Below are positions 8,056-32,130 of a stretch of 53,255 nucleotides of DNA, in pieces. How positions within the stretch are numbered: position 1 is the stretch's first letter; every line of letters begins with the position of its first letter. The position numbers and the translations under genes were made by a program. The stretch covers positions 1-53,255 of the forward strand of contig WFVH01000100.1 of NCBI GenBank assembly GCA_015491735.1, given 5' to 3'. The notes under the pieces were generated by a model. The model was not told the origin of the DNA. It did not search any database and saw only the letters and a program-made list of their open reading frames with translations. This DNA is from Gammaproteobacteria bacterium. GTDB lineage: Bacteria > Pseudomonadota > Gammaproteobacteria > Thiohalospirales > Thiohalospiraceae.

Positions 8056-9723
8056 ATGAGCGAAAGCTTTGCAGAATTGTTTGAACAGAGTCTACAAAAC
8101 ACCCAGATGCGTCCCGGTTCCATTGTCAAGGGGACAGTGGTTGAAGTGGGTCCCTCCTTCGTGGTGGTTAATGCCGGTCTTAAATCCGAGGGGGTCATTC
8201 CCATCGAGCAGTTCTATAACGATGCGGGCGAACCAGCGGTACAGGTCGGAGATCAGATTGATGTGGCGCTCGATGCCGTAGAGGACGGCTCTGGCGAAAC
8301 CCGCTTGTCGCGTGAGAAGGCCAAACTTGCCGAAGCCTGGGGCACGCTGGAGCGGGCGGTCGAAAATGATGAGATCGTCACCGGCCGCATTGTCGACAAG
8401 GTCAAGGGCGGGTTTATTGTCGACGTGGGTGAAATTCGCGCCTTTCTGCCGGGTTCTCTGGTCGATGTTCGTCCGGTGCGTGATACCGCCTATCTGGAAG
8501 GCAAGGATCTGGAGTTCAAGGTCATCAAGCTGGATCGCAAACGGAATAATGTCGTTGTTTCCCGTCGGGCGGTGGTGGAGTCCGAGTATAGCGAAGAGCG
8601 TGACGCCCTGCTGGAGAGCCTGGAAGAGGGGATGACGGTCAAGGGTATCGTCAAGAACCTGACCGACTATGGGGCGTTTGTGGATCTTGGCGGTATCGAC
8701 GGCCTGTTGCATATTACCGATATGGCGTGGAAACGGGTCAAACATCCTACCGAAGTGGTTAATGTTGGTGACGAGATCGAGGTCAAGATTCTCAAGTTCG
8801 ACAAGGAACGCCAGCGGGTCTCTCTTGGCCTGAAACAGCTTGGGGAAGATCCCTGGGTGGCCATATCCCGCCGCTATCCCGTCGGCACCCGGCTGTTTGG
8901 CAAGGTGACCAATATGGCTGATTATGGCGCTTTCGTGGAGATCGAAGATGGCGTTGAAGGTTTGGTTCATGTCTCCGAGATGGACTGGACGAACAAGAAC
9001 ATCCATCCCTCCAAGGTATTGCAGCTGGGTGACGAAGTTGAGGTCATGGTGCTGGACATCGATGAAGAGCGCCGCCGCATTTCGCTGGGGATGAAACAGT
9101 GCCGGCCCAACCCATGGGAGTCGTTTGCAGCGACACATAACAAAGGTGACAAGATCTCCGGCGCAATCAAGTCGATTACCGATTTCGGAATCTTCATTGG
9201 CCTTGAGGGTGGCATCGATGGTTTGGTGCATTTGTCGGACATCTCCTGGAGTGACAGTTCGGAAGAGGTGGTGCGGCAGTTCAAGAAAGGTGACGAGGTC
9301 GAAGCTGTCGTGCTGGCCGTGGATCCGGAACGTGAACGCATCTCTTTGGGAATCAAGCAACTGGATCAGGACCCGGTATCCAGCTACATCGGCGAGCATC
9401 CGAAGGGAACCGTCGTCAGCGGCAAGGTGACAGAGGTGGATGCCAAGGGCGCCGTTATCGACTTGGGTGGTGGCGTCGAAGGTTATTTGCGGGCGTCCGA
9501 ACTGTCCCGGGATCGGGTGGAAGATGCGCGCAGTGTGCTTGGTGCTGGCGATGAAGTGGAAGTCCGGATTATCGGGTTCGATCGCAAGAGCCGCAGTATC
9601 AGCCTCTCCATCAAAGCCAAGGAGGCGGCCGAAGAGGCCGAAGCTATCCGGGACTACAGCCGTTCTGCCGGAGAGGCTACCACCAGCCTGGGCGATCTCC
9701 TGAAGGAGCAGATGGAAAAATAG
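8056..9723 (+). CDS. rpsA: 30S ribosomal protein S1
   Basis: mRNA-binding ribosomal protein of 555 aa, close to E. coli S1 (557). Six S1 (OB-fold) repeats can be followed at roughly 20-90, 105-170, 190-260, 277-347, 364-434 and 451-520. Later repeats show the typical [29 protein letters not shown] and [13 protein letters not shown] patterns. The frame is open upstream to 7984, but [14 protein letters not shown] at 8056 is the conserved start. It follows cmk after a 126-base leader containing a stem and is followed by ihfB, as in related genomes. A 611-codon open frame on the opposite strand is a shadow of this gene. Confidence 0.97.
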
Positions 9724-9819
9724 CAGGAGTTGGTGCGGTGACCGGCGGGCTGATTGCGTAACTGCTCTGGCGCTTGGGCAGGCATTCTGAATTGTTTTCA
9801 TTGCCAAAGGGGTGATGTG

Positions 9820-10113
9820 ATGACGAAATCGGAGCTTATAGAACGACTGGCGGAGCGGATGCGGGTTCAGTTGCCAGAAAAGGATGTTGAGCTGGCGGTA
9901 AAGGCTATTCTCGACTGCATGGCCCACTCTTTGGCCAATGGAGAGCGTATAGAGGTGCGCGGTTTCGGCAGTTTTTCACTGCATTACCGGCCTCCGCGGG
10001 TAGGCCGGAATCCAAAAACGGGGGAGGCTGTCTCCTTGTCCGGTAAATATGTTCCTCACTTTAAAGCGGGTAAGGAGTTACGCGAACGGGTGAATGCGGG
10101 CATGAAAGGGTAG
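9820..10113 (+). CDS. ihfB: Integration host factor subunit beta
   Basis: A 97-aa HU/IHF-family DNA-bending protein. It has the N-terminal helices [14 protein letters not shown], the core [22 protein letters not shown] with the intercalating proline in RNPKTG, and the C-terminal [12 protein letters not shown]. It pairs with IhfA (not in this window) to bend DNA at specific sites. The frame is open to 9754, but the ATG at 9820 follows AAAGGGGTG and matches the family length. The position after rpsA is conserved. A stem-loop at 10182-10203 may end this transcript. Confidence 0.96.
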
Positions 10114-10181
10114 CCTGCTGCGGCCTGGCTGTCTGCCGCCTTGCATCCTGTTTTCACGGATTTGCCGGATTGATCATTGCG

Positions 10182-10207
10182 AAGGGCGCCTGTGCTGCGC
10201 CCTTTAT
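10182..10207 (+). terminator. Probable rho-independent terminator after ihfB
   Basis: AAGGGCGC (10182-10189), a 7-base loop and GCGCCCTT (10197-10204) give an 8-bp stem, followed by a short TTTAT. The T-tract is weak, so termination may be partial. It lies about 70 bases past ihfB and before hemH on the same strand. Confidence 0.6.
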
Positions 10208-10344
10208 CTATTCCGTTGCCTGACAGGGTACCAGGTGAAAGTAAATGAACAGAACCCGGCCCGGGCATCGTTGATTAGCGGGTTCCTCATTGGGTCCATG
10301 CCACTGTTTCAGTCAGCTCCGATGGGCGTATTGAGCAAAAGTTT

Positions 10345-11460
10345 GTGAGTAGATATCAAACCGAATCCGGCTTTGTTCATGGCGCCGAGGAGCGGATCGG
10401 CGTGTTGTTGACCAATCTGGGAACGCCGGATGCGCCAACCCCTGCCGCGTTGAGACGTTACCTGGCGGAGTTTTTGTGGGATCCGCGTATCGTGGAACTG
10501 CCGCGTCCGCTGTGGTGGCTGATTCTGCATGGTATCGTGTTGAGGACCCGCCCCAGGCGCTCTGCCCGGGCTTACGAGGCGGTCTGGAGCGAGCGCGGTT
10601 CGCCACTGCTTGAAACCACACTCGAGCAGGGAGCAAGAGTGCAACAGTTGTTGTCGGAACGTCTGCCGGGGCCGGTCAAGGTTGTTACAGCCATGCGTTA
10701 TGGACAGCCCTCGATTCGGGATGGGGTGGATGAACTTCGGGGGGCTGGTTGTCGGCGTGTTTTGGTATTGCCACTCTATCCGCAGTATTCGTCAACAACC
10801 ACAGCCTCGACTTTCGATGCTGTATCTGCCTGTTTCACCCGGTTGCGCTGGATTCCCGAGTTGCGTTTTATCACGGGTTATCACGCGGACGCGGCCTATA
10901 TTCGTGCCCTGGCGAACAGCGTCTCCGAGCATTGGGAGCGGCGTGGAAGCCGACCGGAAAAACTGCTTTTTTCATTTCATGGCATTCCTCACAAAGGGTG
11001 GCTGGAAGGTGATCCCTATCCTTGCCAATGTCATGCGACGGCGCGTTTGGTGGCGCAATATCTCGGGCTGGATGATGGCAGTTGGCAGGTGGCGTTCCAG
11101 TCCCGTTTCGGTGCGGCGAAGTGGGTCACCCCTTATACAGATAAAACACTCAAGAGCTGGGCGCGCGCAGGGGTGAAGTCGGTCGACGTGCTTTGCCCCG
11201 GTTTTTCCAGCGATTGCCTGGAAACACTGGAGGAGATAGGACAGGAGAACCGGGATAACTTTATTGAGGCTGGTGGTCAGGTGTTTGAATATATTCCTGC
11301 GCTTAATTCAAGAACGGATCATATCGATGCCTTGGCCAGTCTTGTTGAGCGACATGTTCAAGGGTGGCTCGAGGCTGAAGCGGACTGGGATCCGGAAAAG
11401 AGAAGGGCGTGGGCACGGAACTGCCAGCAGTTGGCGAAGGCGCAGGGGGCAGAGCGCTGA
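10345..11460 (+). CDS. hemH: Ferrochelatase
   Basis: Inserts ferrous iron into protoporphyrin IX, the last step of heme synthesis, usually at the membrane face. The 371-residue protein shows LLTNLGTPDAPT near the start, PLYPQYSSTTTAS in the middle, the metal-site histidine in FSFHGIPHKG, and VDVLCPGFSSDCLETLEEI with the conserved glutamate. The only in-frame start keeping the N terminus is GTG at 10345. It lacks a clear Shine-Dalgarno sequence, so translation may be modest. It converges with the CotH-like gene, leaving a 13-base gap. Confidence 0.95.
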   Translation: MSRYQTESGFVHGAEERIGVLLTNLGTPDAPTPAALRRYLAEFLWDPRIVELPRPLWWLILHGIVLRTRPRRSARAYEAVWSERGSPLLETTLEQGARVQQLLSERLPGPVKVVTAMRYGQPSIRDGVDELRGAGCRRVLVLPLYPQYSSTTTASTFDAVSACFTRLRWIPELRFITGYHADAAYIRALANSVSEHWERRGSRPEKLLFSFHGIPHKGWLEGDPYPCQCHATARLVAQYLGLDDGSWQVAFQSRFGAAKWVTPYTDKTLKSWARAGVKSVDVLCPGFSSDCLETLEEIGQENRDNFIEAGGQVFEYIPALNSRTDHIDALASLVERHVQGWLEAEADWDPEKRRAWARNCQQLAKAQGAER

Positions 11461-11473
11461 GCCGGATTCGGAC

Positions 11474-13153
11474 TCAGTTGCCGACCCGGAAATGGAGCAC
11501 GCCGTAGTAGTAACGGTTGTCTTTTTCATACAGATCAAATGATGTTTGCCAGTTCGTTTCCGGCTGTTTGCTGTCCCTCGCAATGATGCGCAGAAAATAG
11601 CTGCCCGGCGTCAGATTCAGCGGAAGATTCAGGTAGGTCTCCGTAACTCCCTGTTGATCGAGAACAATGGTGCTGGCTTCAAACTCGTGGCTTGAGGCGA
11701 TGGTGATATCGTAGCTTATTTCATCTCCTTGCAGGTCATATGACGCGTCCCATGACACGCTCAATATGCCATCCTCCAGTACCGGTTTATGTGACCAAAA
11801 CGGCATGGGGCGCTCAAGAAAATCGATGAAATCCCTGTGGTTGTGGATGAGCTCCTGAATCAAGCGGCCGTATTCATCTTGCCAGGCCGTCAGGCGGGCC
11901 TGCCTCCCCACCGCGGCAATTGGCAGATGCACGAAGTCGGGCGGGCGACTGATCAGCGGTTCGACCTGTGGCCTGTAACTGTCGAGCAGCGCCTGAATGG
12001 CCGTATCGTTCAGATAGCGTGAGCGAATTTCGGCGACCGCCTTGATGAGATCATCCAGGTTACCCGGTTGCTGCAGAAAACGGCGGTGGAGCGGGACACG
12101 CCACCAGTTACTGACTCCTCTTCGCCAGCGCGCGGAGTAGTAGTTGTTGAACTCTCCTCCACCCTGCCGGAGAACCTGTTGATCGAACCCCCAGGCGTCA
12201 TCGTAGTCCCATGGAATGAAATAGAATTTGTCACTGCCGGCCGGATTATAGAGGTAGAAGTTTTTCGAGACAGTGTCCCAGTTGCCCATCAAGATGGTCG
12301 CAGCAAGCCAGCTCAGATAGTTGTTGCGGTTGAAGTATTTGTTGAATACGGTAGCAAAATCATTGGACTCATCCTCGACCCCGGCAATCATCTGCAGCAG
12401 TTTCCGATGCTCGCTGCCCCGTTTGATCTCCAGTATCTGTTCGAATTTCTCCTCGTCGGCAGGTTGACCGTTGCCATCCAGTTTCAGCGCATCGACGTAG
12501 TAGAAATGAAACAGCTCCGCCTTGTACAGCCCCGAGTCCTTGTCCCAGTTGCGGTTGAGCAGATACTCCTTGCCGACATGCTCCACATGGGTAAACAATC
12601 CATAGTCCTGCCCGTCAATAGCCAATTGGACAAACTGGGTGCGTAATGCGGGCAGGTGGGGAATGGTGCTGAACAGATCGAAACTCAGTTTGTTACGTAC
12701 CCGGGTGATATCGAAGGGGTGTTTGTTCAATTGCAAGCGACGCTCGCCCCGCCATAATCTTTCCTTGCTGTCCAGTTTTATCCGGTACGATTTTTGCGCC
12801 GCCAGCCGTGACGTGTTGCCCCGTTGTCTCAAGGTGGCGTTGGAGAGGGAGCCATCGTTCCCGAAGTCATCGCTTTGAAAATGAACGTTGATTTCCGGTT
12901 TGAAATCATCATGGGGATTGGTATCGTTGTTTACGTCTTCAAGCGTGTAGCCGCCGGGATCGGTAACGGTTGTCAACTGTACTTTCAGTACCTGGTGGCT
13001 GCTGTTTTCATACCAGACGCCGGGATCCTGGATATCGCTGTCATCGGGAACAAAAATGCTGGCGGGCGGTTCGCTGGAGAAGGGATAACAGCCCGCAAGT
13101 AGCGGGACGATGGCGAATGCCGCGACGGCAAGGAAGGGGAATCGTGTTCTCAT
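11474..13153 (-). CDS. CotH-kinase family lipoprotein
   Basis: A 559-residue protein with a lipoprotein signal (hydrophobic stretch ending VPLLAGC, cysteine about 22), so it is likely anchored in the outer membrane or periplasm. The middle is a CotH-type atypical kinase fold: KSYRIKLDSKERLW, KHPFDITRVRNKLSFDLF, YGLFTHVEHVGKEYL, then MGNWDTVSKNFYLY and FIPWDYDDAWGFDQQ. The two aspartate motifs match the catalytic and metal sites known from Bacillus CotH, so kinase activity is plausible. About 100 C-terminal residues look like a fibronectin-like beta domain. No partner gene is adjacent, so the substrate is unknown. The gene stands alone between hemH and a foldback repeat. Confidence 0.85.
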   Translation of the reverse strand: MRTRFPFLAVAAFAIVPLLAGCYPFSSEPPASIFVPDDSDIQDPGVWYENSSHQVLKVQLTTVTDPGGYTLEDVNNDTNPHDDFKPEINVHFQSDDFGNDGSLSNATLRQRGNTSRLAAQKSYRIKLDSKERLWRGERRLQLNKHPFDITRVRNKLSFDLFSTIPHLPALRTQFVQLAIDGQDYGLFTHVEHVGKEYLLNRNWDKDSGLYKAELFHFYYVDALKLDGNGQPADEEKFEQILEIKRGSEHRKLLQMIAGVEDESNDFATVFNKYFNRNNYLSWLAATILMGNWDTVSKNFYLYNPAGSDKFYFIPWDYDDAWGFDQQVLRQGGGEFNNYYSARWRRGVSNWWRVPLHRRFLQQPGNLDDLIKAVAEIRSRYLNDTAIQALLDSYRPQVEPLISRPPDFVHLPIAAVGRQARLTAWQDEYGRLIQELIHNHRDFIDFLERPMPFWSHKPVLEDGILSVSWDASYDLQGDEISYDITIASSHEFEASTIVLDQQGVTETYLNLPLNLTPGSYFLRIIARDSKQPETNWQTSFDLYEKDNRYYYGVLHFRVGN

Positions 13154-13256: not shown

Positions 13257-13409
13257 GTAACTATTCAGCTCACCCCTGAAATTCGCCATTTCTGCGTTGA
13301 AAAATGGTCATTTACACGCGTAAACTCCCATTTTTCGCCTTGAACTGACGAATCTCAGAGGCAATCTGAACAGTTACCGGCTTGTTTCATACTATGCTGA
13401 ATAGTTACC
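13257..13409 (+). repeat. Foldback (MITE-like) element, copy 2, complete
   Basis: The core runs from GTAACTATTCAG (from 13257) to CTGAACAGTTACC (13366-13378). A 31-base tail ends in a second CTGAATAGTTACC (13397-13409). Nested internal inverted repeats (AAAAATGG / CCATTTTT and TTTACACG / GTAAA) make the core foldable. It is almost the exact inverse of copy 1. It lies between the upstream end of the CotH-like gene and the downstream end of smr. There is no coding capacity; a short minus-strand frame starting in it is an artefact. Confidence 0.9.
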
Positions 13410-18612: not shown

Positions 18613-18975
18613 CTATATCAGTTTGGCGATACTCTCCGCCGCGCGCTTGACATCGAGAAAAATCAGCCCCAGTTTTGCCTGTGGTTTTGCCAGCACGGTG
18701 ATAACGGCATCCGGTCCGGCGTAGGTCATCAGAATGTAACCTTTGTCACCTTTGATAAGGGTCTGTTCCAGTGTTCCACGGGCCAGCTCCTGGGAAGTAC
18801 GATCGCCAAGAGAGAGCATCGCGGCGCTCATTGCCCCCATACGGTCTTCATCGAGTTCTGTGGGTAGCACGCTGGACATCATCAAACCATCGGTGGATAT
18901 GACTGCAGATGCCTCGATGTCAGCCGAGGTTCCATTGAGTTCTTTCAGAATCGAACTAAGCATTTCTTCGCGCAT
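18613..18975 (-). CDS. Roadblock/LC7 domain protein
   Basis: A 120-residue protein made only of a roadblock/LC7 fold. It has a first helix MREEMLSSILKELNGTS, a strand ADIEASAVISTDGLMMSSVLP, then the helix DEDRMGAMSAAMLSLGDRTSQEL, and strands GYILMTYAGPDAVITVLAKP with a final helix VKRAAESIAKLI. In bacteria such proteins dimerise and regulate Ras-like GTPases (MglB for MglA, CvnB in Streptomyces conservons). It is the last gene of the minus-strand cluster, but a foldback element and about 370 bases separate it from the second roadblock-like gene. A candidate promoter lies in that gap. GGAGTAAAG before the ATG is a good ribosome site. Confidence 0.88.
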   Translation of the reverse strand: MREEMLSSILKELNGTSADIEASAVISTDGLMMSSVLPTELDEDRMGAMSAAMLSLGDRTSQELARGTLEQTLIKGDKGYILMTYAGPDAVITVLAKPQAKLGLIFLDVKRAAESIAKLI

Positions 18976-19014
18976 GGGCTTTACTCCTGGTGGAATGGTA
19001 GTAATATCTAATCA

Positions 19015-19137
19015 GTAACTACTCGGTTTGTCCCTGAAATCCGCCATCTCCGCGTTGAAAAATGATCATTTAACTGACGGATGTCAGAAGTAATCCGGGT
19101 GATTACTTCCAGCGATTACAACCCGCTGAGTAGTTAC
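19015..19137 (+). repeat. Foldback (MITE-like) element, copy 4, internally deleted
   Basis: The ends are GTAACTACTCGG and CTGAGTAGTTAC, inverted repeats with one mismatch. The left half matches copies 1-3 (CCCTGAAATCCGCCAT, GCGTTGAAAAATG). About 30 central bases present in the other copies are missing, and the right tail (GATTACAACCCGCTGAGTAG) resembles that of copy 3 rather than copies 1 and 2. It sits inside the GTPase/roadblock cluster, 40 bases upstream of the roadblock start codon. Confidence 0.8.
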
Positions 19138-19282
19138 AGGTTTTTTTCTGATCCGTTAGACAGCGAACCCCGCACTGCGATAGGGCCGAACAGGAGCGCT
19201 GCTCTGTATACAACCGGGCAGTTGCCGGAAACGCTGACGAAGCACCCGTATGTTAATCGGCTCTTGCCTGTTTTGTTTTAGC

Positions 19283-19313
19283 ATTATATCGTTTTTGAGT
19301 TTGCCGGGGTTAA
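19283..19313 (-). promoter_or_regulatory. Candidate promoter for the distal roadblock gene
   Basis: On the minus strand a perfect TATAAT (19288-19283) lies 19 bases after TTAACC (19313-19308). The long spacer makes it only a fair match. A transcript from here would pass through the foldback element before reaching the roadblock start at 18975. Confidence 0.3.
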
Positions 19314-19343
19314 TAGTTACTGTCGATTGTCCTGGCAAGCAGT

Positions 19344-19985
19344 TTACGCAGCTGCATATCGAATGCTGAGGGCCCAAATCAGTTGCAGAAAAGCGGGCTG
19401 GTTAAGGCGGGGCATGCCGCCTGCTACCAGAACGAAGCGCTGGTCTCCAACATACATCGGCCAGAATCCGACTTCACTGTTACCTGCTGCGTCGACCACC
19501 GCCCAAGCGTTGGAGCGCAGTCCCAGGTTATTCTTCAACAGGCCGGCATGGCGCTCATGAAGCGTAGCGAGATCGGCGCTCAAGGCGGACAGCTCTTCAG
19601 CTGTCTCGTGGGCAAACCCCCTGGCGCACAGGTAGAAGCCCTGTTCGTCAGCGAGCAGTATTTTGTTGTTATCCGACAACGGCGCCAACAGATCCGGGAG
19701 TGTGTCTTCCAGCCGCCCCGCGGGTGGCTCAATGGGGGTATCGGAACCCTCTACCCATCCGAGCGACTGGATGTGACCGACAAGCTCCATGACCTGGTCG
19801 TCGTTCTCTATTCCGGACCAGCTTTTAAGTCCATCTAAGCTCAGCAACGGGCTGACCAGTTGCTGGAGCAAACTGCGCAACAGCCGGCGTGCCGCCTCGT
19901 CTTCGGGGCGGGATACCGCATAGTATGCGCCTGCTGGACTGGGCAATACGTAGAGGTCTTTTTCTATCTGGTATTGGCTGTTCAT
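19344..19985 (-). CDS. Roadblock-like protein of the GTPase cluster
   Basis: A 213-residue protein I do not recognise by name. Residues 1-95 form a mostly helical N-terminal part (RRLLRSLLQQLVSPLLSLDG, MELVGHIQSLGWV). From about 105 the pattern ILLADEQGFYLCARGFA, a helix rich in A and L, AWAVVDAAGNSEVGFWPMYV, RFVLVAGGMPRLN and a last helix resembles a roadblock/LC7 domain. Its start overlaps the end of the GTPase gene by four bases, strong evidence for coupled translation. By analogy with MglB and CvnB it may be a GTPase-activating or docking partner; this is inferred from context and a weak fold match. Confidence 0.75.
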   Translation of the reverse strand: MNSQYQIEKDLYVLPSPAGAYYAVSRPEDEAARRLLRSLLQQLVSPLLSLDGLKSWSGIENDDQVMELVGHIQSLGWVEGSDTPIEPPAGRLEDTLPDLLAPLSDNNKILLADEQGFYLCARGFAHETAEELSALSADLATLHERHAGLLKNNLGLRSNAWAVVDAAGNSEVGFWPMYVGDQRFVLVAGGMPRLNQPAFLQLIWALSIRYAAA

Positions 19986-20527
19986 AGGGAGATTTTCAGA
20001 TCGGGGGTGAGTGAAAACAGCAATGCTTCGATAAGAATGATCACATCGCGGCGCTGCCGGGCATCTATTTCGAAAATGGGCACATTGAGTCCGGTAGGTT
20101 TCAGCTCCTCATGATACTGCTCAATCCTGGGGGTGGCACAGCGGTCGGTCTGGGTTATCCCGATTGCCAGTTGAGTCGAGTCGATGAATTTTTTGAATGA
20201 ACTCAAGAAAAAGTGCATATCCTGAAAGGGATCGGAACGGGTATTGTCCAGCAGCAGGATGAGACCAATCCCGCCTTCGGTGAGGATGTCCCACATGAAG
20301 TTGAAACGCTCTTGCCCGGGCGTTCCGTAAAGATGAAGAAATTCACCACCTTCCAGTTGCATGGAGCCGTAATCCATGGCAACCGTTGTGGTTTCCTTTA
20401 TGTTCTGGGTCATATCGGTTGCGAAAGCGTCCGTGGTGACCGGGGGAGTATCGCTGATGGAGCGAATGGCGGTGGTTTTCCCGGCTCCGACGGGACCGGC
20501 GAATATGAGTTTATAGTGATTTTCCAT
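19982..20527 (-). CDS. Small Ras-like GTPase (MglA/CvnD-like)
   Basis: A 181-aa GTPase. The P-loop GPVGAGKTT is at residues 11-19, and the switch I region holds ETTTVAMDYGSM. Switch II is LYGTPGQERFNFMWDIL (about 66-82), where the usual DxxG aspartate is replaced by glycine, as in MglA-type and conservon (CvnD) GTPases. The base-recognition motif is TQTD (125-128), a variant of NKxD, and DAR (155-157) takes the place of SAK. The short form without other domains and the GTPGQ..FMWD signature fit the conservon GTPases best. The roadblock-like gene overlaps its end, and the receiver-like gene lies 22 bases upstream. Likely a membrane- or pole-associated switch; the process controlled is unknown. 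Confidence 0.88.
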   Translation of the reverse strand: MENHYKLIFAGPVGAGKTTAIRSISDTPPVTTDAFATDMTQNIKETTTVAMDYGSMQLEGGEFLHLYGTPGQERFNFMWDILTEGGIGLILLLDNTRSDPFQDMHFFLSSFKKFIDSTQLAIGITQTDRCATPRIEQYHEELKPTGLNVPIFEIDARQRRDVIILIEALLFSLTPDLKISL

Positions 20528-20549
20528 ATCTTGGCGTCAGTTGCTCTTG

Positions 20550-21824
20550 TTATCGGCTTCGTCTGTGCAGGCGGGCCAGTATTTTCCGGAACAGCCCTCT
20601 GCGTTCTTGCTCCGGTTGAGATGATACCGGAGCAGCCCTTTTTTCCCCACTGTTTTTTGTTTGCTGTTTCACCAGGCCAAGAGCGTTGGCCACACTGTAG
20701 AAAGAGAACACATATTTTGGCGCAATATCCAGCATTGTTGCAGTTTCCATCAATGAGATGGGCTGGTTGGCCCACAGCGCCGCAATACGGAGGCCGTTTT
20801 GAACCGGCATCAGCCGGCTCAGGTTCGGCCAGTGCACCAGGTAGACCGGAGCGCGCAGGTCGGTTCCAACCGGAATACGGCCACGGGCGGTTCGCATGGC
20901 CAGTTTCCAGAGAAAAAACTCGATGGATTGCAAGGATCCCCCCTTTTCAGGCATTGACCGTTCCTGTTTGATGACCTGAATGCTGACATCTTTTGTGCGG
21001 ATCGGCATTACCGCAAGTGCGTAGAGATGGGCATGACTTTGTTCCACCCATATTTCACGGGTCTCGGGTATGATGACAATCGGGCGCCACGGTCCTTTCA
21101 GGGAGACTTTTCTGTTTTCCCGAAGTGCGAGCCGGTAGGCCTTTTGAATATAGCCCTGCAAATATTTTTCCGGGTCATAGAGAAATGAGCTCTTCTCTTT
21201 CTGTTGCAGCGCTTCGGACGGGTTTGGCGCTGTTTCCACGGGCCGCCTGTCGGTCCGGGAGGCGGGGAAAAGGGAGATGATCTCCCCGGACGGCGACGGC
21301 TCCGGGGGGGGCGCATGTTGCTTTCCGCTCTCTTCCGTCAATGTGACTTTTGTACCGAGGGTTGCAACGGTTGCCACTGCGCTGTTCAGCCCCGATGGCT
21401 GTAGAACGCTCTTCCGGCTTTCCCACTGGGCCGTTGTTTCTTCCTGGCGGAGGGCCGCCGGTGGGGGAGTGACTGTCTGCTCCGGTCGTTGGAACGATTC
21501 GCTTATCCGGTTGAGGGCGGAGATCAGTGCTTCAGGCTGGATAGGCTTTTTCAGAAAGAGGTTGCCATCCTGCCCGGGTTCCAGCAGCGAGGCTTGAATG
21601 ACCGGCCGATCGGGGTATCTGCTCTCATGCTCTTGCCGAAGCTGCTCCGCATGAACCGCGTCCATATCGATGATGGTGATGTCTGCTGCTTCTTCGCTGG
21701 TCAGGAGATATTCGTTGTGACACATCTGCTGAAAAAACAGTTGCAGCATGTTGCGGGCGCGCTGTTCCATGCCGACAACAGTAATTCGTAGCGGCTTGAT
21801 ACCCTGTTTCGTTCTGGTTTGCAT
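20550..21824 (-). CDS. Receiver-like / winged-helix-like protein of the GTPase cluster
   Basis: A 424-residue protein without a clear family. Residues 12-110 resemble a response-regulator receiver: strand ITVVG, TIIDMDA with a possible phospho-acceptor aspartate (53 or 55), and LKKPIQPEALISAL with the usual Lys-Pro. The acidic pair near the N terminus is absent, so phosphorylation is doubtful. A proline/serine-rich linker follows to about 215. Residues 226-343 are a mixed alpha/beta region (REIWVEQSHAHLYALAV, FFLWKLAMRTARGRIPV). Residues 344-385 (GLRIAALWANQPISLMETAT and on) look like a winged helix, reminiscent of CvnC/DUF742. The tail is strongly basic. AGGAG upstream supports the ATG. Confidence 0.75.
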   Translation of the reverse strand: MQTRTKQGIKPLRITVVGMEQRARNMLQLFFQQMCHNEYLLTSEEAADITIIDMDAVHAEQLRQEHESRYPDRPVIQASLLEPGQDGNLFLKKPIQPEALISALNRISESFQRPEQTVTPPPAALRQEETTAQWESRKSVLQPSGLNSAVATVATLGTKVTLTEESGKQHAPPPEPSPSGEIISLFPASRTDRRPVETAPNPSEALQQKEKSSFLYDPEKYLQGYIQKAYRLALRENRKVSLKGPWRPIVIIPETREIWVEQSHAHLYALAVMPIRTKDVSIQVIKQERSMPEKGGSLQSIEFFLWKLAMRTARGRIPVGTDLRAPVYLVHWPNLSRLMPVQNGLRIAALWANQPISLMETATMLDIAPKYVFSFYSVANALGLVKQQTKNSGEKRAAPVSSQPEQERRGLFRKILARLHRRSR

Positions 21825-21903
21825 GCCTCTATATTCTCCTCAATACACCGGGATCAGGCGTTGCCCGCCGTGTTGCTGCTTTCCGCTTGCCCTGGACATT
21901 GCC

Positions 21904-22641
21904 TCAAGCCGTTTGCGCCGTGAACTGTTTGGCAAGCTGCTCCCAGCCAGCGGGAACCGGTTGTCCCAGTTTGTCGAGCTTGGCGCGCATGGCGGTGAAA
22001 CTCTGCAAATCGTTTGACGCGCGGTAGATGGCCAGCAGCGTATCATGCAGTTCGGTTCTGGCGGGATCGTCCAGCACCGCCTGCTCCAGAATCTCTTTGG
22101 CTCTGTCTATCTGGCAGTATTCGATATGCTCCAGGGCCTCTTTCAGCGGATCACGCCTGGCGGGTGCAGTACCGGCGGTGCGCACGACCAACTGGCGGGT
22201 GCCACTTAACCCTTTGCTCAAAACAGAGCAACTGGTGGGAGGCATCGGGTCGGTGGCCGAGACACCTTTTTCCAGATGGGTTGCCAGCGCCTGGAACCGC
22301 TCTTCGGACAGCAACGGGTGGGCTCTTCGCAACATCCGGCGCCGAACCGGCACGCCCTTGTCACCCAGCGCGATGAACAGATCCAGCAGGGCGCCGTAGA
22401 CACCCTCTTTGTCCCGCTGGGCAAGGTGAACATTGACTCGCTGAATTTGCGCTATCAGGTTCGTCGGTGTCCGCGCTACGGCGCGGGCAAGATAGCGCTC
22501 TGCCTTGTTTCCCAGTTTGTGGGTGTCGACTTGTAGAGACCGGTGCTCCGAAAGGTGAAAAGCAGGCTCGAGCAGTTCGCGGGATGGTTTCTGTTCGGCT
22601 TGTTGCGCCGGTGTGGAGTCGGGGAGGCCTTTTTTCTTCAT
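21904..22641 (-). CDS. FimV-like TPR protein at the head of the GTPase cluster
   Basis: A soluble, mostly helical protein of 245 aa without signal peptide or membrane segment. Residues 40-130 contain repeats of helices (LARAVARTPTNLIAQIQRVN, VYGALLDLFIALGDKGVPVRRRML). The last 75 residues have TPR-like pairs (ALEHIEYCQIDRAKEILEQA, ELHDTLLAIYRASNDLQSF) ending LGQPVPAGWEQLAKQF, which recalls the cytoplasmic C-terminal TPR of FimV. I start at ATG 22641; a TTG at 22701 would add 20 residues. Both have poor ribosome sites. FimV organises cell poles and type IV pili in Pseudomonas, so the likeness suggests a polar scaffold here, as inference. Confidence 0.7.
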   Translation of the reverse strand: MKKKGLPDSTPAQQAEQKPSRELLEPAFHLSEHRSLQVDTHKLGNKAERYLARAVARTPTNLIAQIQRVNVHLAQRDKEGVYGALLDLFIALGDKGVPVRRRMLRRAHPLLSEERFQALATHLEKGVSATDPMPPTSCSVLSKGLSGTRQLVVRTAGTAPARRDPLKEALEHIEYCQIDRAKEILEQAVLDDPARTELHDTLLAIYRASNDLQSFTAMRAKLDKLGQPVPAGWEQLAKQFTAQTA

Positions 22642-31973: not shown

Positions 31974-32130
31974 GGTAACTATTCAGCTCACCCCTGAAAT
32001 CCGCCATTTCTGCGTTGAAAAATGGTCATTTACACGCGTAAACTCCCATTTTTCGCCTTGAACTGACGAATTTCAGGAGCAATCTGCGCAGTTATCTCTA
32101 ACTATTACAACTCGCCGAGTAGTTATAACC
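31974..32130 (+). repeat. Foldback (MITE-like) element, copy 3
   Basis: Its left end GGTAACTATTCAG and the whole left and central part are almost identical to copies 1 and 2. The core right end is diverged (CTGCGCAGTTATC near 32084-32096). The tail (CTAACTATTACAACTCGCCG) differs from copies 1 and 2 and ends AGTAGTTATAACC. It stops 11 bases before the start codon of the outer-membrane protein, so that gene's ribosome site AAGGA lies directly at the element's edge. Confidence 0.85.

Follow-up and report, generated by a model that had tools for sequence, protein, structure and literature searches.

A five-gene locus on the minus strand

The subject of this study is a five-gene module built around a small MglA-like GTPase, located in a 53,255-nucleotide stretch of DNA (the window) from a gammaproteobacterium of the Thiohalospiraceae (assembly GCA_015491735.1, contig WFVH01000100.1). 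Open reading frame (ORF) calls confirm the arrangement described in an initial sequence-only reading of the window: five minus-strand genes in the order TPR-like > RecWH > GTPase > RB2 > LC7 (TPR, tetratricopeptide repeat), all at the positions given there (Table 1). The genes are unevenly spaced, with 22 bases between RecWH and the GTPase, a four-base overlap of the GTPase and RB2 (19982-19985), as had been noted, and 368 bases between RB2 and LC7. The TPR gene begins with the ATG at 22641, the same start at which the alignment of its relatives begins. Promoter and terminator scans returned nothing clearly above chance.

The sequence-only reading had called for a survey of co-conservation in related neighbourhoods, and the outcome favours a genuine module. 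Among 80 named contigs retrieved with the GTPase profile, from Methylococcales, Thiotrichales, Sedimenticola-like and other symbionts, Sphaerotilus, Zoogloea, Aquitalea and others, the exact order TPR > RecWH > GTPase > RB2 > LC7 is present in 58, and the same order recurs in most genomes of the window's genus; the arrangement is therefore not due to chance. In nearly every locus RecWH and the GTPase are neighbours. The TPR gene, too, is co-conserved, and its membership of the module is newly recognised here. In whole-genome searches the window's genome had a single GTPase of this kind and a single roadblock protein that Pfam detects.

Table 1. Coordinates of the module genes and their features in the window (aa, amino acids; AF2, AlphaFold2)
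Feature	Position	Strand	Basis
TPR-like protein, 245 aa, first module gene	21904..22641	-	ORF; TPR_19 0.0014; 5' of RecWH in 58/80 loci
RecWH, 424 aa: receiver-fold domain, disordered linker, C-terminal alpha/beta and helical part, hydrophobic tail	20550..21824	-	AF2 model; without Pfam match
RecWH receiver-fold domain, residues 11-113	21486..21794	-	AF2 model, structure search, alignment
RecWH C-terminal tail RRGLFRKILARLHRR, MinD-anchor-like	20553..20606	-	pattern count in homologues; predicted helix 407-421
MglA-family small GTPase, 181 aa, almost certainly Group 3	19982..20527	-	Ras 3e-6; invariant G-motifs; tree
RB2, 213 aa: N-terminal winged-helix-like part and C-terminal roadblock domain without DG pair	19344..19985	-	AF2 pLDDT 94
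Roadblock/LC7 (MglB-like) protein, 120 aa, with Asp29-Gly30	18613..18975	-	Robl_LC7 4e-16
368-base RB2-LC7 gap with dispersed repeat copy at 19032-19062	18976..19343		ORF map, repeat scan

Family identity of the GTPase and its roadblock partners

The GTPase matches Pfam Ras (3e-6) and also ATP_bind_1, and it carries the GTPGQERFNFMWD, TQTD and DAR motifs that had been picked out by eye. In the alignment of its homologues, G1 reads GxxGxGK[TS], G2 is a TT lacking the arginine of Group 1, G3 is GTPGQ, G4 mostly lacks its lysine and G5 is D-x-R, mostly DAR. According to PMC4316618, GTPGQ and the absence of the G2 arginine are common to MglA Groups 2-5, while in Groups 2 and 3 the G4 lysine is often absent and G5 is DAR. 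Group 3 there comprises beta- and gammaproteobacterial GTPases whose genes accompany those of one or two MglB homologues and of a partner that has a receiver-like start, a variable linker and a winged-helix-like end (by Phyre2). The window's GTPase has GTPGQ, no arginine finger in G2, no lysine in G4 and DAR as G5; it is coupled to two MglB homologues, LC7 and the roadblock domain of RB2; and the adjacent RecWH has a receiver fold and a disordered linker, its presumed winged-helix part showing suitable helices in the model. In our tree it falls among the proteobacterial rows, as does a Neisseria GTPase fragment, apart from the long-branch Thermus and Deinococcus GTPases, although the bootstrap had not settled and many inner branches are weak. 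The five-gene order is also found in a record from Neisseria, a genus named for Group 3.

Since the G-motifs, the partner with its receiver, linker and presumed winged-helix end, and the two MglBs match the published description, and the gene order matches that of Neisseria, the module belongs almost certainly to the Group 3 MglA systems with two MglBs. It shares with the systems of Neisseria and Snodgrassella the GTPase motifs, the partner layout (with the winged-helix end presumed), the number of MglBs and the beta/gammaproteobacterial range. The family was already described in 2014 (Wuichet and Sogaard-Andersen, PMC4316618), and the module is not a new relative of the conservons. In the available part of that paper nothing is said of the TPR gene, the tail of RecWH, the winged-helix-like part of RB2 or neighbours encoding PAS, periplasmic-binding-fold or FimV proteins.

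The two roadblock proteins are not alike. LC7, correctly assigned to the roadblock/LC7 family from the start, matches Robl_LC7 at 4e-16 and has as relatives in the PDB 7f8m (2e-28), cvnB5 (7e-17) and MglB (3e-4); the Asp-Gly pair, which is conserved in the MglBs of Groups 2-5 according to PMC4316618, is present in all 48 of its homologues. The match of RB2 to Robl_LC7 (0.045) lies under the cut-off, and 11 of 61 homologues match that profile (best, 1.7e-4). Because a profile comparison of RB2 with LC7 gave a probability of 7%, too weak for homology by sequence, structure was used for the assignment. The AF2 model of RB2 (predicted local distance difference test score, pLDDT, 94) bears out the suggestion that this 213-residue protein is roadblock-like: residues 89-211 form a roadblock domain, with a VIA Z of 10.6 to 3kye (107 residues; root-mean-square deviation, rmsd, 3.1 A) and of 9.3 to MglB. 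The helices and strands before residue 89 look like a winged helix in the model. At the site of the Asp-Gly pair RB2 has Gln115-Gly116, and the residue before the glycine is Asp in just one of the 61 homologues.

RecWH and its C-terminal tail

RecWH of the window has no Pfam match. Its AF2 model comprises a confident receiver domain, then a disordered linker (about residues 123-203), and lastly a C-terminal half that is for the most part confident. The receiver-like character first read from the sequence is supported by structure, as residues 11-113 align with known receivers at a VIA Z of 12.5 and 2.1 A over 99 residues. In the alignment the domain keeps Asp53, Asp55, Ser79, Lys93 and Pro94, and at the end of strand 1 most homologues have G-M-[DE] rather than the usual acidic pair, so that it does not qualify as a canonical receiver.

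The pattern [LIF][LFI]xx[ILVMF][LIMFV]xx[LIV] terminates all 67 RecWH homologues and only 16 of 670 neighbouring proteins, and a strict amphipathic and charge score for lipid binding is passed by 39 of the 67 tails compared with 21 of 641 neighbours. The window's tail resembles the end of MinD from the same genome, EKKGFLKRFFGA. The C-terminal end of MinD binds the membrane and, judging from this resemblance in sequence, the RecWH tail would do likewise. Proteins encoded just 5' of Thermus and Deinococcus plasmid GTPases, one of them annotated DUF4388, end in similar tails, which may reflect a shared docking mode; RecWH and the Thermus DUF4388 protein reach a profile probability of only 6%, even though both end in a GLLxRVLxxL-like tail. 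The Thermus plasmid operon (L138:1857-3986(+)) reads DUF4388-GTPase-roadblock-protoglobin.

The nature of RecWH bears on the foremost alternative, suggested in PMC4316618, in which the GTPase and the roadblocks gate RecWH as a response-regulator-like DNA binder. The receiver and winged-helix layout deduced there with Phyre2, the receiver fold confirmed by our structure search and the match of one of the 67 RecWH homologues to an AsnC-type helix-turn-helix profile all speak for such a transcription regulator. However, the acidic pair that Mg binding and phosphorylation require at the end of strand 1 is not conserved, the consensus of the final helix in the winged-helix-like part (YVFxFxSAA) is hydrophobic and aromatic rather than basic, and a membrane-like tail is ill-suited to a soluble DNA binder. 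We regard transcriptional control as unlikely.

Pili, poles and the surroundings of the module

A first line of evidence for a role at poles and in type IV pili is co-occurrence in a sample of 276 gammaproteobacterial genomes, with PilO and FliG as markers of type IV pili and flagella. A GTPase of this profile is present in 55 of them, about a fifth. PilO is found in 52 of the 55 as opposed to 161 of the 221 others (p 2.6e-4, in a genome-level test that ignores relatedness). It also occurs in all 34 GTPase-positive families, with p between 0.002 and 6e-6 when the total number of families is bracketed between 145 and 168, a test that lessens the effect of relatedness. FliG occurs in 37 of the 55 (67%, compared with 52% of the others, p 0.049), and a comparison of lists shows that the 18 GTPase-positive genomes without FliG all have PilO.

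A second line of evidence comes from neighbouring genes. In eight Thiotrichales loci (L127, at 9574-12782, and L109, L126, L114, L115, L123, L097 and L124), FimV/HubP genes scoring above the FimV_Cterm cut-off lie directly 3' of LC7 or of a PAS/binding-fold gene pair described below. There are one or two copies per locus, with two in the Leucothrix loci L127 and L109, and in L127 a copy overlaps LC7 by 4 bases. Ten Thiotrichales loci have a bactofilin gene 5' of the module, mostly on the opposite strand (e.g. L102:4904-5275(-)). A genuine FimV/HubP link exists, as an extra gene beside the module. It is not the one first envisaged, in which the TPR protein itself was a FimV-like scaffold. The TPR protein of the window has no match to the FimV_core or FimV_Cterm profiles, and the genome's own FimV, the single profile match, lies elsewhere, at C23; the identification was rejected on these grounds. 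The resemblance is a distant one between TPRs (hhalign probability 56%), and the 245-residue protein represents a separate TPR-like family, not FimV. Its TPR_19 match is weak (0.0014), and 15 of 56 homologues match at 0.01 or better.

A third line is analogy. In Myxococcus xanthus, MglA stimulates type IVa pili together with SgmX, a TPR protein, and FrzS, a pseudo-receiver protein (PMC11580455). The likeness to the M. xanthus system extends to an MglA-type GTPase, a roadblock GTPase-activating protein (GAP), a TPR protein, a receiver-fold protein without critical phosphorylation residues and, if our reading is correct, a type IVa pilus output. The M. xanthus system differs in that its Group 1 GTPase has an intrinsic arginine finger, it has a RomR/RomX guanine nucleotide exchange factor, SgmX has 14 TPRs, and FrzS ends in a coiled coil whereas RecWH ends in a presumed winged helix and a tail. 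Among Group 3 systems, mglB alleles of Snodgrassella improve competitiveness in non-native bee guts, for which action via pilus motility has been proposed (PMC11112851).

Based on the co-occurrence with PilO, the FimV/HubP and bactofilin neighbours and the M. xanthus analogy, we propose that the module is a switch made of MglA and two roadblocks, tethered to the membrane, by which type IV pili are organised at the pole; to this reading of the gene context we would give an even chance. The GTPase would alternate between GTP and GDP forms. LC7, with its Asp-Gly pair, would be the GAP-like roadblock and RB2, lacking the pair and bearing an extra winged-helix-like part, its non-equivalent partner; being non-equivalent, the two could form an asymmetric regulator. 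RecWH would offer its receiver-fold domain as an input surface and, binding the membrane through its tail, would hold the module at the inner membrane. As an effector or adaptor, the TPR protein may couple the GTP form to what it acts on, most likely the polar type IVa pilus machine, and FimV/HubP-type landmarks would act together with it. The role in pole organisation or pili suggested in the sequence-only reading is supported as likely. The more specific proposition of a dedicated beta/gammaproteobacterial membrane MglA switch for pili, with a MinD-like tethered RecWH, asymmetric roadblocks, an SgmX-like TPR effector and a FimV/HubP landmark, is put forward tentatively.

Several points weigh against this proposal. 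The module contains no pilus gene and pili are common (PilO in 213 of the 276 genomes), so that the co-occurrence is weak as specific evidence; three GTPase-positive genomes have no PilO match, perhaps being incomplete. The FimV adjacency is limited to Thiotrichales and may go back to one event. The tail was tested by sequence, with only 39 of 67 tails reaching the strict score, and the C-terminal helix of the GTPase holds a similar hydrophobic pattern. Finally, all contacts among the module proteins are ones that we infer.

The FimV/HubP neighbours would also fit a module that, through these proteins, controls polar flagella or chemotaxis arrays instead of pili, and the PAS, protoglobin and CZB genes that adjoin some modules, together with the slight enrichment of FliG, could be cited in its favour. 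The absence of FliG from 18 of the 55 GTPase-positive genomes, including G004 of the same genus, when pilus genes are nearly always there, makes this quite unlikely. The relationship first suggested, to the Streptomyces conservons (CvnA-D) with the kinase replaced, is not supported, and a proteobacterial conservon in the form of a kinase-coupled, receptor-like G-protein complex whose kinase is encoded elsewhere is highly improbable: the GTPase is about 39% identical to CvnD, the roadblock and GTPase pair and the DAR and GTPGQ motifs are held in common, LC7 resembles cvnB5 and actinobacterial plasmids carry conservons as kinase-roadblock-DUF742-GTPase, but in the tree a long branch (support 100/100) sets the CvnD sequences apart as their own clade, a conservon has a sensor kinase and a DUF742 protein, and here none of the five genes encodes a kinase and neither RecWH nor RB2 shows significant similarity to DUF742 (hhalign probabilities 2% and 0.2%, no Pfam match).

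For the proposed pilus switch, the present work adds a fuller parts list and a gene-context case for a membrane and pole role, as against the earlier suggestion of transcriptional control. The output of Group 3 MglA is only guessed at in the literature that we found, and the partners listed here make the question directly testable, for instance in a tractable methanotroph. The TPR protein, the membrane-like tail, FimV/HubP, bactofilin and the near-universal type IV pilus background also bear on the placement of type IV pili outside the myxobacteria.

Other neighbours vary between lineages. Modules in the window's genus have as neighbours a gene for a DegQ-like protease and, on contigs that extend far enough, rpoS (both named from their translations); identity between the window and G006 is 98% for LC7, 83% for RpoS and about 70% for RecWH and the TPR protein. 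About 46 loci carry, mostly after LC7, genes for a PAS protein and a 248-residue phosphonate-binding-fold protein with no evident signal peptide at its start (e.g. L054:10532-11770(+)), which likely extend the module with a sensory part in methanotrophs and other carriers. The window's module has no such pair next to it, and the binding-fold protein has no match in the window's genus. Next to the bactofilin gene, Thiotrichales loci encode a coiled-coil-like protein whose start is hydrophobic. Split or rearranged modules occur in L081, L083, L106 and L118, with RecWH-GTPase alone by a CZB-domain gene, or TPR > RB2 > LC7 adjoining GTPase/RecWH. The Neisseria gonorrhoeae record (L132:4445-7548(+)) has the five genes in the same order, with broken RecWH, GTPase and RB2 frames and a short TPR gene. 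Two same-genus loci (L046:8005-9183(-) and L047:2367-3671(+)) encode a second MglA-like GTPase with a linker and, by eye, a C-terminal roadblock-looking domain, possibly a GTPase-GAP fusion; a whole-genome search did not find this type in the window's genome. The dispersed repeat TTTTTCAACGCRGARATGGCGGATTTCAGGG has copies in the window at 102-132, 13274-13304, 19032-19062 and 31992-32022, and 241 copies in the 2.43-Mb genome (up to 3 mismatches; reversed control, 0), many of them at contig ends.

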